From an uncultured Bacteroidales bacterium (GTDB lineage: Bacteria > Bacteroidota > Bacteroidia > Bacteroidales > UBA932), in NCBI GenBank assembly GCA_905234775.1, contig CAJOJC010000082.1:1-12061 (forward strand): a DNA stretch of 12,061 nt. The letters are read 5' to 3'. Shown here piece after piece: positions 3,219-11,743 of this stretch. The translations under genes were made by a program, and so were the position numbers. Position 1 is the stretch's first letter; every line of letters starts with the position of its first letter. The notes under the pieces were generated by a model. It was not told the DNA's origin. It did not search any database and saw nothing but the letters and a program-made list of their open reading frames with translations.

Positions 3219-3494
3219 TTATTTAAGAAGGTCAGTAACATAGGGGAGAAGGGCGATGGCGCGCGCACGCTTGATAGCCTGGGCGACCTTGCGCTGGAAC
3301 TTCAGAGAAGTACCGGTAATGCGGCGAGGGAGAATCTTACCCTGCTCGTTGAGGAACTTCTTGAGGAACTCTGCGTCCTTGTAATCCACATACTTGATGC
3401 CGGCTTTCTTGAAACGGCAATACTTCTTCTTGCGAACCTCTACGGTCGGAGGATTAAGATAGCGGATACCGCTGTTTTCTACATTAGCTGCCAT
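3219..3494 (-). CDS. rpsR: Ribosomal protein bS18
   Basis: A 91-residue bS18, which pairs with bS6 on the platform of the 30S subunit. The conserved core is clear: [37 protein letters not shown] and [19 protein letters not shown]. It starts two bases after the rpsF stop, consistent with translational coupling in the standard Bacteroidetes S6-S18-L9 operon. Only the single cysteine in YCRF is present, so this is not the four-cysteine zinc-binding form. Confidence 0.98.
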
Positions 3495-6641: not shown

Positions 6642-7733
6642 TTACAAAATAATCACGTCAATATAAAGATGAATCAGGCTATGATGCGGATCATTTGTGT
6701 AAAGAGTGATTATTCCGAGATTGTCGCCGTCCGGTTTCATGCCGGCAGTATCCAGCTCGAACTCTAAAAGCGCCTTGGAACCGGCCTTGATGCTGTTAAC
6801 TGTCTTCAGCGGCTTGATCTTATCGCTGTTGTAGTCGATTTTGTAGATAGTGAGGGGAGTCTTACCGCCGTTCGCGATTTTGAAGGTCCCACGGACGGGG
6901 GTACCGGCCTCGCACGGGTCTGCCGCGAACGAGCCGTCGTATTCGGCCGCAGGGGCCGCCGCTTTCTGGGCGCCGCTCCAATAATCGAAATTCTCGCGGG
7001 TCGACGCCACGAACGCTATACTGCCTTCCTGCCTGATTCCATTGACGACCGGGGTCGCATAATACAGGTTTCGGCCCCACAGGCTGCGGTCGGCCGTGAC
7101 CGTTACCCCGAGCAGCGCCGTACTGTTGCCGGCGATCTTAAGCTCGGACGGAGTGAACGAGAGGAAGGGGGAGACGCAGTCGAAGCTGACCGTGATCTCT
7201 TTTTTCCCGACATTCGCCACCCTCAGTTCCATGCTCTTCTGTTCGCCCTGGCTGAGGTTGCCGATTTTAATCTCGGACTCACGAAGGCCGAACGGGCCGA
7301 ATTGGACGGTGTACGTCTCCTTCAAGGGCATTTTTTTCGGATGCACGACCCCGCGAAGGTGCAGGATCAGGGGCTTTCTCACGCCCACAAAACTGACGGT
7401 AAGGGTCTTGTCAAACGCATACGGGCCTTCGTCGTTCGAGTAGGTTGCCTCGATCGAGCCGCTCTCTCCGGGGGCAATCTGGCCGATGGTCCATTTCACG
7501 CCCGTGCAGCCGCATGAGCTGGCGACTGAGCGGATCATCACCGGCTCTTCGGAGACGTTGGTAACGGTAAAGCTGCAAGACAGCGGGCCGTCTTTGACCG
7601 TCACGTCTCCCCAGTCATGGACCGTTTTGTCGACGGAGACGATTCCGCCGAAACGGGTTTGGGCGAAGGCGCCGACGCAGAGGAAGAGGCCTGCCAGAAA
7701 TGCGAAGCTAGCTTTAAACATTGCCTTTGACAT
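6642..7733 (-). CDS. Exported DUF1573 protein with tandem Ig-like domains
   Basis: A 363-residue secreted or periplasmic protein, function unknown. Residues 1-24 form a signal peptide (FLAGLFLCVGAFA before QTRF). Residues about 30-130 are a DUF1573 domain: HDWGDVTVKDGPLSCSFTVTN, the family mark SSCGCT (72-77), IAPGESG and a terminal LHLRGVV strand. Residues about 140-363 look like further all-beta Ig-like domains ending DPHHSLIHLYIDVIIL. The ATG at 7733 is preferred: a GTG at 7751 in the same frame lies upstream of a consensus -7 box that would overlap its codons, and the signal peptide fits better. DUF1573 proteins are abundant in Bacteroidetes. Placement before parE suggests shared transcription, not a shared job. 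Confidence 0.87.
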   Translation of the reverse strand: MSKAMFKASFAFLAGLFLCVGAFAQTRFGGIVSVDKTVHDWGDVTVKDGPLSCSFTVTNVSEEPVMIRSVASSCGCTGVKWTIGQIAPGESGSIEATYSNDEGPYAFDKTLTVSFVGVRKPLILHLRGVVHPKKMPLKETYTVQFGPFGLRESEIKIGNLSQGEQKSMELRVANVGKKEITVSFDCVSPFLSFTPSELKIAGNSTALLGVTVTADRSLWGRNLYYATPVVNGIRQEGSIAFVASTRENFDYWSGAQKAAAPAAEYDGSFAADPCEAGTPVRGTFKIANGGKTPLTIYKIDYNSDKIKPLKTVNSIKAGSKALLEFELDTAGMKPDGDNLGIITLYTNDPHHSLIHLYIDVIIL

Positions 7734-7738
7734 AATTG

Positions 7739-7746
7739 CAAAGTTA
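7739..7746 (-). promoter_or_regulatory. -7 box of the DUF1573-parE-acyltransferase operon
   Basis: TAACTTTG on the minus strand (7746-7739) matches TAnnTTTG and ends 5 bases before the ATG at 7733, so the transcript is predicted to start almost at the ATG. A clear -33 TTTG is not seen. The box lies back to back with the ferredoxin promoter. Confidence 0.55.
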
Positions 7747-7758
7747 ACCACAAATTGT

Positions 7759-8993: not shown

Positions 8994-9299
8994 TTATTCT
9001 CCGAGTATTTCTGCAATACGAGGGTCGTCCTCGCGGGCCACGATAACGAAGGCGTTTCCGTCTTCTACCGCGATACCTGCATTGGAGTTGACGACTGACT
9101 CGCGAAGCTTACGGCTGTCTACGCCATTCTCCCTGATGAGGTGGAGCCTGACCTGAGAGACGCGCCTTACGCCGAGGTTGTAGGCAGTGACGCTGTCTTC
9201 GCTGTCCGGCGAGACGGGAGCGATCATAACGTATTTCGCATCGCCGTCGTAGGCCTTGATTTCCTTGGCGATTTTATCGAGCTGCTTGCGGGCTCCGTA
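8994..9299 (-). pseudogene. OmpA-like C-terminal domain segment
   Basis: An open frame reading YGARKQLDKIAKEIKAYDG, then VMIAPVSPDSEDSV, AYNLGVRRVSQVRLHLIREN, GVDSRKL and a final strand NAFVIVARED. The order (helix with LDKIA, strand, YNLxxxRRxxxVxxxL helix, GVDxxRL) is that of the OmpA C-terminal peptidoglycan-binding fold, although the usual GHTD segment is replaced by APVSPD, so peptidoglycan binding is uncertain. The only ATG in frame is at 9227, which would lose the first helix, so this is a fragment and not a free gene. The real junction is VV-N-Y, after removal of one base. Confidence 0.68.
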
Positions 9300-9660
9300 G
9301 TTACACGACGTAGATGAGGGTGCTTTCGGGCTCCATCGGAATAGGAACGGGAACGACTACGGTATCGATCTGGATCACAGGGTCTTTCTCGATAACGACT
9401 GTATCTATCTGGATCTCAGGATCGGAAGCCACGAAGACTGTGTCAACCTGAATCTGGGGATCAGAAGCTACGAATACAGTATCGATCTGGATCTGAGGAT
9501 CTGCAGCTACGAAAACGGTGTCTGTCTTTACCTCGGAAGGCACGAATACAGTGTCTGTCTTTACCTGAATCTCGGGCTCTGACTTGAGAAATACGGTATC
9601 TTTCTGAACCTTGACTACTTCGCGGTCGCGGTAACGGATTTCGATTTCCGGCTCGGACTG

Positions 9661-9843
9661 GACGTAGACCGTATCCACCAGGATGACGGGCTCTTTGTCG
9701 CGGTAAACTGTCTGGATCTGAACCTCAGGATCTGTAGCCACAAAGACTGTATCCTTGACGATGACGGGCTCTTTGTTCACATAGACGGTCCTGACCATAA
9801 TCTCGGGCTCGGAAGGGATGAAGATGGTATCTTTCTGAACTTC
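9661..9843 (-). repeat. Segmental duplication, second copy (partner 10051-10233)
   Basis: Second copy of the 61-codon block. Past its end the copies continue to match with a 2-codon length change (DREVVKVQKDTVFL in both). Confidence 0.85.
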
Positions 9844-10050
9844 TACCTGGACCTGGATTTCGGGCTCGGAAGGAACAAATACTGTGTCTTTCTGAACTTC
9901 AACCTGAACCTGAATTTCGGGCTCGGAAGGGATGTAGACTGTATCCTTGAGGACTTTTACCTGAACCTCGGGCTCAAGCTCTAAGAAGACGGTATCTTTC
10001 TGAACCTTAACCACTTCGCGATCGCTGTCAACAATCATGTCATCCTCGTC

Positions 10051-10233
10051 AACATAGACTGTATCAACAAGGATGACGGGTTCCTTGTCGCGGTAAACGG
10101 TCTGGATCTGAACCTCCGGATCGGTAGCGACAAAGACTGTATCTTTAACCACGATGGGCTCCTTGTTAACGTAGACGGTCCTGACCATGATCTCGGGCTC
10201 TGAGGGAACGAAGACCGTGTCTTTCTGGACTTC
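10051..10233 (-). repeat. Segmental duplication, first copy (partner 9661-9843)
   Basis: Sixty-one codons, from EVQKDTVFVPSEPEIMV through TVYVNKEP, DTVFVATDPEVQIQTVYRD and KEPVILVDTVYV, recur 390 bp further along at 9661-9843 with only four amino-acid changes (VF to IF, V to I before PSEP, IVV to VIV). Many third-base differences separate the copies, so the duplication is old while the protein is conserved. Confidence 0.85.
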
Positions 10234-10425
10234 GATCTGGACCTCGGGCTCCGTCTGGACGAAGACGGTGTCTGTCTGAACTTTGAGAACCAACTCGGGC
10301 TCGGAGAGGATGTAGACGGTATCCACCTGAACTACAGGCTCTACGGCGACAGAATCTACTGCATTAGTATTGAGGCTGTCTGAATAGACTGTCTTGACGA
10401 GGATCTCGGGCAGCGACTTGATGTA

Positions 10426-10467
10426 GACGGTGTCTGTCTGGACGAAGACGGTGTCTGTCTGGACGAA
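10426..10467 (-). repeat. Two perfect 21-bp tandem repeats in the coding repeat
   Basis: Positions 10426-10446 and 10447-10467 are identical on the plus strand (unit begins gacggtgtctgtctgg, ends acgaa) and a partial third copy follows. They encode the 7-residue unit DTVFVQT. Exact repetition here contrasts with the diverged repeats elsewhere and marks a site prone to slippage, though steps of 21 bp keep the frame. Confidence 0.88.
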
Positions 10468-10643
10468 GACGGTGTCTGCCTTAATGTAGACCGTGTCAGT
10501 CGGGGTCTTAACAGCTGCACCGGCCTCTACTACGTCGTAGATGGTGAGGGTGTCTACCTGATTGACCTTAAGGACTAAGGTATCGTGTACGATCTTCTCG
10601 ACCTCGACTTCCTTAGTCTCGGTAACGACGACGGTGTCTGTCT

Positions 10644-11321
10644 TTACCTTCTGCTTCTCCTTCTCGAGTTCCTTCTCGAGAGCGGCGATATTGTCTTTAT
10701 AGGTCTGGTGAGGATCCTTATCGTAGGTGCGTAGGTGCGGCCTTTTCCGAGACCGAACCTCAGACCAAGGCTGGCCTCAGGATAGACGGTAGGGTTGCGC
10801 AGAGGGTGATAAAGATTGACTCCTACGCGGCCGAAGAAGCTCGTATGTGCGGAAATACGGTCGCTGAGGTCAATACCTATAGACGGAAGCCAATAGTAGG
10901 CGGTTCCGGCAGTAGGGAACTCATTGACTATCTTTCCCAATCCGGCATAACCGGCGATGTGGAATCTTGTTCTGGCGCCTTCTTCCTCACCGAGGAAAAG
11001 GTTGGTGAGCTCGAGGAGTCCGAGGATACGGGCCTGGAGGTCAAAATCCTTTCCTGCGAAGATTTCATCGGCTCCGGCAGTATTGCGGCCGATGACGATG
11101 TTTCCGCCGGTATTGAGAGCGATTGCGGTATATGGTGAGAACCACCAACCTAACTCAAGCTGGCCTCCTGCATCGATGAATCTGAGGTTTAACGAGATCT
11201 GTGTGCCGCCGCCTACGGAGACGTAGAACTTGTCTGTTCTGACTGTCTCAGGGTTCTCTTTTGCGCCCGCAAAAAGTGTTGCGAGAACGCATAAAACGGC
11301 TGTTAGAATAGTCTTTTTCAC
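10644..11321 (-). CDS. N-terminal barrel segment of the OmpA-like protein
   Basis: As the sequence stands, this segment translates to 225 residues: signal peptide 1-20, then alternating hydrophobic strands typical of an 8-strand OMP barrel (FYVSVGGGTQISLNLRF, QLELGWWFSPYTAIALNTGG, FHIAGYAGLGKI, HTSFFGRVGVNLY, PEASLGLRFGLGKG). After residue 197 the 8-bp duplication throws it into a wrong frame, giving a basic tail (RRNSRRRSRR) that is an artefact of the shift and not a domain. The native frame continues with DKDPHQTYKDNIAALEKE. If expressed as is, it would be a barrel without its periplasmic part. Confidence 0.75.
   Translation of the reverse strand: MKKTILTAVLCVLATLFAGAKENPETVRTDKFYVSVGGGTQISLNLRFIDAGGQLELGWWFSPYTAIALNTGGNIVIGRNTAGADEIFAGKDFDLQARILGLLELTNLFLGEEEGARTRFHIAGYAGLGKIVNEFPTAGTAYYWLPSIGIDLSDRISAHTSFFGRVGVNLYHPLRNPTVYPEASLGLRFGLGKGRTYAPTIRILTRPIKTISPLSRRNSRRRSRR
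10723..10738. repeat. 8-bp tandem duplication that breaks the OmpA-like frame
   Basis: gtaggtgc occurs twice in a row (10723-10730 and 10731-10738). Removing one copy joins the barrel frame exactly to the repeat-stalk frame (633 bases from 11363 to the next codon, divisible by three). Confidence 0.92.
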
Positions 11322-11366: not shown

Positions 11367-11374
11367 TATATTTG
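11367..11374 (+). promoter_or_regulatory. -7 box of the LysR-type HTH gene
   Basis: TATATTTG on the plus strand ends 6 bases before the ATG at 11381, predicting a leaderless or nearly leaderless transcript. Only 12 bases separate it from the identical divergent box of the OmpA-like gene. Confidence 0.6.
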
Positions 11375-11380
11375 TACAGT

Positions 11381-11743
11381 ATGTTGGAAGAAGATTTCAG
11401 ATTGAGGGTTTTCGTGACCGTCTCCGAGCTCGGTGGTTTTTCGGCCGCCGCGCGCGAATTGGGCGTTAGCCAGTCCGCCGTGAGCCAGAACATCCAGGAG
11501 CTCGAGCGTCAGACAGGAACCGCCCTTTTCGAACGCACTAGAAACTCTCTTTCAATTACTCCCGCAGGCGAACTTCTTAAAAAGTACGCAGCTGAAATCC
11601 TCCACTGGTACGGCGCGGCAAATGACGCCCTGGATCCTGAAAAACAGGCCGAGGAACCCCTGGAAGTCCAGTTGAACAACTCTCAGACGGTCCAGATTTG
11701 GAGCACCGGCGGAGACCTTCACCTAAAACTTAAAGAGAACTAA
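11381..11743 (+). CDS. Stand-alone LysR-type HTH regulator
   Basis: A 120-residue protein containing only the winged HTH of the LysR family: FRLRVFVTVSELGGFSAAAR, GVSQSAVSQNIQELERQTG (29-47), LFERTRNSLSITPAGELL (49-66). A typical LysR regulator has about 300 residues with a periplasmic-binding-like effector domain; here the coding region ends after a short strand-rich tail (VQLNNSQTVQIWSTGGDLHLKL). The ORF ends in a normal TAA, 17 bases before a lipoprotein gene, so it may be a genuine short form and not a fragment. The ATG at 11381 is preferred to an in-frame TTG at 11372 inside the -7 box. It is divergent from the OmpA-like gene and could regulate it or the lipoprotein. Confidence 0.85.
   Translation: MLEEDFRLRVFVTVSELGGFSAAARELGVSQSAVSQNIQELERQTGTALFERTRNSLSITPAGELLKKYAAEILHWYGAANDALDPEKQAEEPLEVQLNNSQTVQIWSTGGDLHLKLKEN

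Follow-up and report, generated by a model that had tools for sequence, protein, structure and literature searches.

An exact 8-bp sequence repeated back to back inside the gene for a surface protein raises the question of whether the cell switches that protein on and off, has recently lost it, or still possesses an intact gene that was broken only during assembly. The locus lies in a 12,061-nucleotide stretch of DNA from an uncultured Bacteroidales bacterium (the window), where an initial annotation had described the duplication as disrupting an OmpA-like envelope gene and had named all three possibilities. Here, we compare the locus with its relatives, and infer that an assembly error in a repeat-rich gene is favoured slightly over a recent loss of function, with a probability of roughly one half.

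Two frame breaks in an OmpA-like gene

The sequence GTAGGTGC occurs twice back to back, at 10723–10730 and 10731–10738 of the + strand, in a gene that is itself encoded on the − strand. The exact run of period 8 spans 18 bp (10722–10739, a feature without strand; 2.2 units by TRF) and is flanked by CG, a 2-bp microhomology. Simulating the window 60 times with a first-order Markov model never produced an exact 18-bp run of period 8, and exact tandem runs with periods of 4–30 number three in the window against a simulated mean of 0.12. One of the other two runs is an exact 10-bp repeat at 2098–2118 within the intact cellobiose-2-epimerase-like gene, where the frame is unbroken; a tandem match by itself therefore proves nothing, and it is the comparison with relatives that counts.

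That comparison bears out the disruption. Close genomes in which the junction aligns carry one copy of GTAGGTGC (4/4: G001, G002, G003 and G009), with an 8-base gap against the window; a fifth, G321 (50% identity), keeps its frame open for 784 codons but gave no alignment of the junction and is excluded from the count of four. A scan of 16 partly overlapping loci found no case of two exact copies of the 8-mer in tandem. In the window, the frame of the barrel (10644–11321, − strand) runs from a GTG at 11321, a start placed by homology with the intact relative P0001, to a stop at 10644, giving 225 residues. The last 28 of these form an out-of-frame basic tail that is unseen in homologues, and the initial annotation was right to call it spurious; nor was any orthologue found in which the two-copy frame persists and its tail is conserved. 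The stalk (9301–10719, − strand, delimited by open reading frames and homologues), a repetitive DTV(F/Y)V region, is in a different frame, which is open from 10776 down to 9301.

The duplication is one of two frame-breaking differences, the second of which had escaped notice. At 9300–9306 (− strand), alignments with relatives place a second break inside the stretch coding for FPENAAWV, which is nearly invariant in the homologue alignment; against the related locus L002, the window is without 23 bp at 9303/9302, and this gap shows no duplicated overlap. Some 23 bp kept by relatives are absent here, which closes the stalk frame at 9301 and leaves the C-terminal OmpA-C-like domain (8994–9302, − strand; open reading frames, homologues and fold) in a further frame. 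Between the two breaks lies an odd in-frame replacement: at 10022–10062 (− strand) the window encodes DEDDMIVDS, which the alignment finds in 0/27 homologues, where the loci L001–L003 have QSEPEIEVRTVYR.

Summed over both breaks, the change in length is a multiple of three, as might be expected if the gene existed naturally in pieces or were expressed through programmed frameshifting. There is, however, a stop in the barrel frame between the breaks, the nearly invariant FPENAAWV stretch is lost, and the gene is a single open frame in 26/27 homologues; we have rejected this explanation on the strength of those intact homologues and find it hardly credible.

A reversible on/off switch, in which gain or loss of one 8-bp unit would turn the surface protein on or off, had also been proposed, and the tract is indeed an exact tandem repeat with a unit length not divisible by three. 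The hypermutable multi-unit tract typical of a contingency locus is nevertheless absent, there being just over two units, and the tract is neither present nor variable in relatives, whether judged by the four aligned junctions or the 16 scanned loci. Moreover, the second break downstream would split the gene whatever the state of the 8-mer. The switch is thus not borne out, and we consider it highly improbable.

The protein family and the neighbouring genes

A search with the stalk open reading frame returned 27 homologues, of which 26 encode all three parts (barrel, stalk and C-terminal domain) in a single frame, so that barrel and stalk do share a frame in relatives, as had been predicted. 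The exception (P0005, 636 aa) matches locus L001 from the genome RUG489; this broken form represents three member sequences, from one contig as listed. On sequence comparison and a predicted structure, the gene in the window is an orthologue of an OmpA/OprF-like outer-membrane protein of roughly 650–850 residues, in which a long linker of DTV repeats stands between a barrel and a C-terminal domain of the peptidoglycan-binding type. Genome searches yielded few matches: 2/101 and then 5/400 in the genus of G002, the identical five of 400 in the genus of G003, 6/299 in a sample of the family (two strong, G002 and G321) and 4/348 among relatives of G001 (two strong, G001 and G009). A search of a plasmid collection gave no match.

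The description of the product as an OmpA-like envelope protein finds its support in the predicted fold of P0001, which has an N-terminal transmembrane barrel of eight strands and a C-terminal OmpA-like fold of the peptidoglycan-binding kind (stalk residues 220–722 of the model have pLDDT < 50 and are left uninterpreted). From this fold, the protein would act as an outer-membrane anchor. With NCBIfam and Pfam, no family exceeded the cut-off for the three pieces in the window, and a PDB sequence search with the family profile gave no match at E ≤ 1. The Pfam OmpA family, which we take to be PF00691, matches 0/27 members: at E ≤ 1 the members match 13 families, of which it is not one, and the commonest weak match is DUF7618 (16 members, best E 0.0013). 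The protein is accordingly described as OmpA-like by its predicted fold and is not classed as a member of the Pfam OmpA family.

The downstream acyltransferase (PF01553; 8028–8981, − strand) is intact by Pfam and by comparison with L001–L003. It lies directly downstream, as annotated initially, beginning 12 bases past the stop of the OmpA-like gene, and this order is kept in L001–L003. Seven other genes in the window are full length, a tally that leaves out the two genes truncated at the edges of the window: by model coverage, the cellobiose-2-epimerase-like gene and those for ribosomal proteins L9, S18 and S6; and by comparison with L001–L003, a topoisomerase subunit, a 369-aa gene at 6642–7751 and the downstream acyltransferase. 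Three further complete genes with domain-only matches stand outside this tally (a 189-aa acyltransferase, a 292-aa AraC-type regulator and a 123-aa LysR-type gene with a helix-turn-helix). The last of these, at 11372–11743, encodes a short protein that matches in the helix-turn-helix only, and is divergent from the OmpA-like gene.

Recent loss or assembly error

The pieces past the breaks look as constrained as neighbouring genes. Compared with L001–L003 and L005, dN/dS for the barrel, stalk and C-terminal pieces is 0.037–0.152 in 11/12 comparisons and 0.160 in the remaining one (stalk against L005), while three neighbouring genes compared with L001–L003 give 0.022–0.140 (nine comparisons). 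Against the remote locus L016, the barrel gives 0.258, the stalk 0.153 and the C-terminal domain, compared over 40 residues only, 0.139. Compared with P0001, the closest intact protein, the C-terminal piece is identical at 102/102 residues and the barrel at 190/192; in the stalk, 449/523 columns are identical and 57 are gap columns, the difference in length being accounted for by in-frame gaps. Low dN/dS and near-identity to P0001 together rule out a long-standing pseudogene. Near-identity would also mean that two neutral indels had had little time in which to accumulate, since more amino-acid change would then be expected.

A real and recent loss of function in the sampled strain is the main competitor, and we hold it to be a serious possibility, if a somewhat less than even one. 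The 8-bp duplication would have arisen by slipped-strand mispairing at the 2-bp CG microhomology, with the deletion following or accompanying it. Spontaneous mutation commonly yields short duplications and deletions, phage pressure can lead to the loss of surface barrels, and an exact tandem duplication with flanking CG is in keeping with such an event. The cell would then produce no more than a barrel of 225 residues, lacking both the stalk and the peptidoglycan-binding domain, and lost translation could reduce expression of the downstream acyltransferase. Against this, there are two lesions, yet amino-acid change is almost nil outside the stalk, and dN/dS is not clearly relaxed, although neither the dN/dS nor the identity figures would register a loss that was very recent. 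Furthermore, the barrel-only form had no match at E ≤ 0.001 among 707 protein candidates of about 131–418 aa, a search in which the window's own product is likewise unlisted, so that its record may be missing from that database.

Recurrence of broken copies bears on both explanations. In L001 (RUG489), at 3320–3335, 47 bp are absent at the border of stalk and C-terminal domain, GTAG is doubled at the join and the gene is split; this break lies close to the second break of the window, and the closely similar P0004 is intact. The RUG genomes described in PMC5830445 were assembled from Illumina reads with MEGAHIT and IDBA-UD (raw data under PRJEB21624), and RUG489, going by its name, would belong to that set. 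The break in L001 could reflect contig ends joined with their overlap unmerged, and the 8-bp duplication in the window would fit the same origin; a break in a second assembly could also reflect real recurrent loss. P0029 and P0030 are C-terminal-only open reading frames of 77 aa that start at an internal Met, on contigs of at most 1309 and 5564 bp; they may represent additional broken copies or simply fragments from contig edges. An extended form of the loss hypothesis would have short duplications and deletions, placed at both stalk borders, recurrently and truly inactivate the DTV-stalk protein of this lineage (in the window, RUG489 and perhaps P0029 and P0030), with cells alternating by mutation between a wall-anchored barrel and one that is unanchored or absent, for example under phage pressure; this we regard as improbable.

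Assembly error is favoured, slightly, on the following grounds. Two frame breaks and a replaced segment all fall in one gene, whereas the seven other tested genes are full length; the pieces look constrained like their neighbours, with barrel and C-terminal piece near-identical to P0001; the barrel-only form was not found among the 707 candidates; and L001 breaks the same gene with a doubled GTAG while P0004 is intact. Contigs would have been wrongly joined in a gene whose stalk repeats differ from one co-existing strain to another, giving rise to both breaks; an 8-base overlap left uncollapsed at a contig join would produce exactly such a duplication, and the gene in the actual cell would be intact. 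On the other side, de Bruijn assemblers seldom create false junctions inside contigs, and the 23-bp gap lacks a duplicated overlap.

The suggestion of a mis-assembly beside repeats holds only in a loose sense: the stalk does lie between the breaks, but no exact repeat of at least 12 bp elsewhere in the window touches 10690–10770 or 9270–9340. Mis-assembly through exact repeats within the window is rejected for this reason, and the remaining assembly causes are strain variation or unmerged contig ends. Between the slip event and the mis-assembly proposed at the outset, the evidence thus leans slightly to the latter. Even a frame break of a non-homopolymer type in a metagenome contig should be compared with relatives before a switch is invoked. 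The locus also draws attention to an OmpA-like family that has a long repeat stalk and no confident match in Pfam, and whose gene is interrupted in two or more assemblies.

Comparison with known systems

The breaks resemble the frame breaks familiar from metagenome assemblies in being of the indel type, in affecting one hard-to-assemble gene and in having intact copies in other assemblies; they differ in being non-homopolymer. With slipped-strand contingency loci, the locus shares a frame-shifting exact tandem repeat in a surface-protein gene, but it has just over two units, a single copy in the four aligned relatives and a second break. The closest structural counterparts are OprF and OmpA of Gram-negative bacteria (PDB 4rlc and 1qjp; C-terminal domains 9uu2 and 3td5). 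Unlike these, the family has no Pfam OmpA match in 27 members and no PDB sequence match, and the copy in the window is broken; to the common plan of barrel and C-terminal domain, it adds a DTV-repeat linker of about 500 residues.
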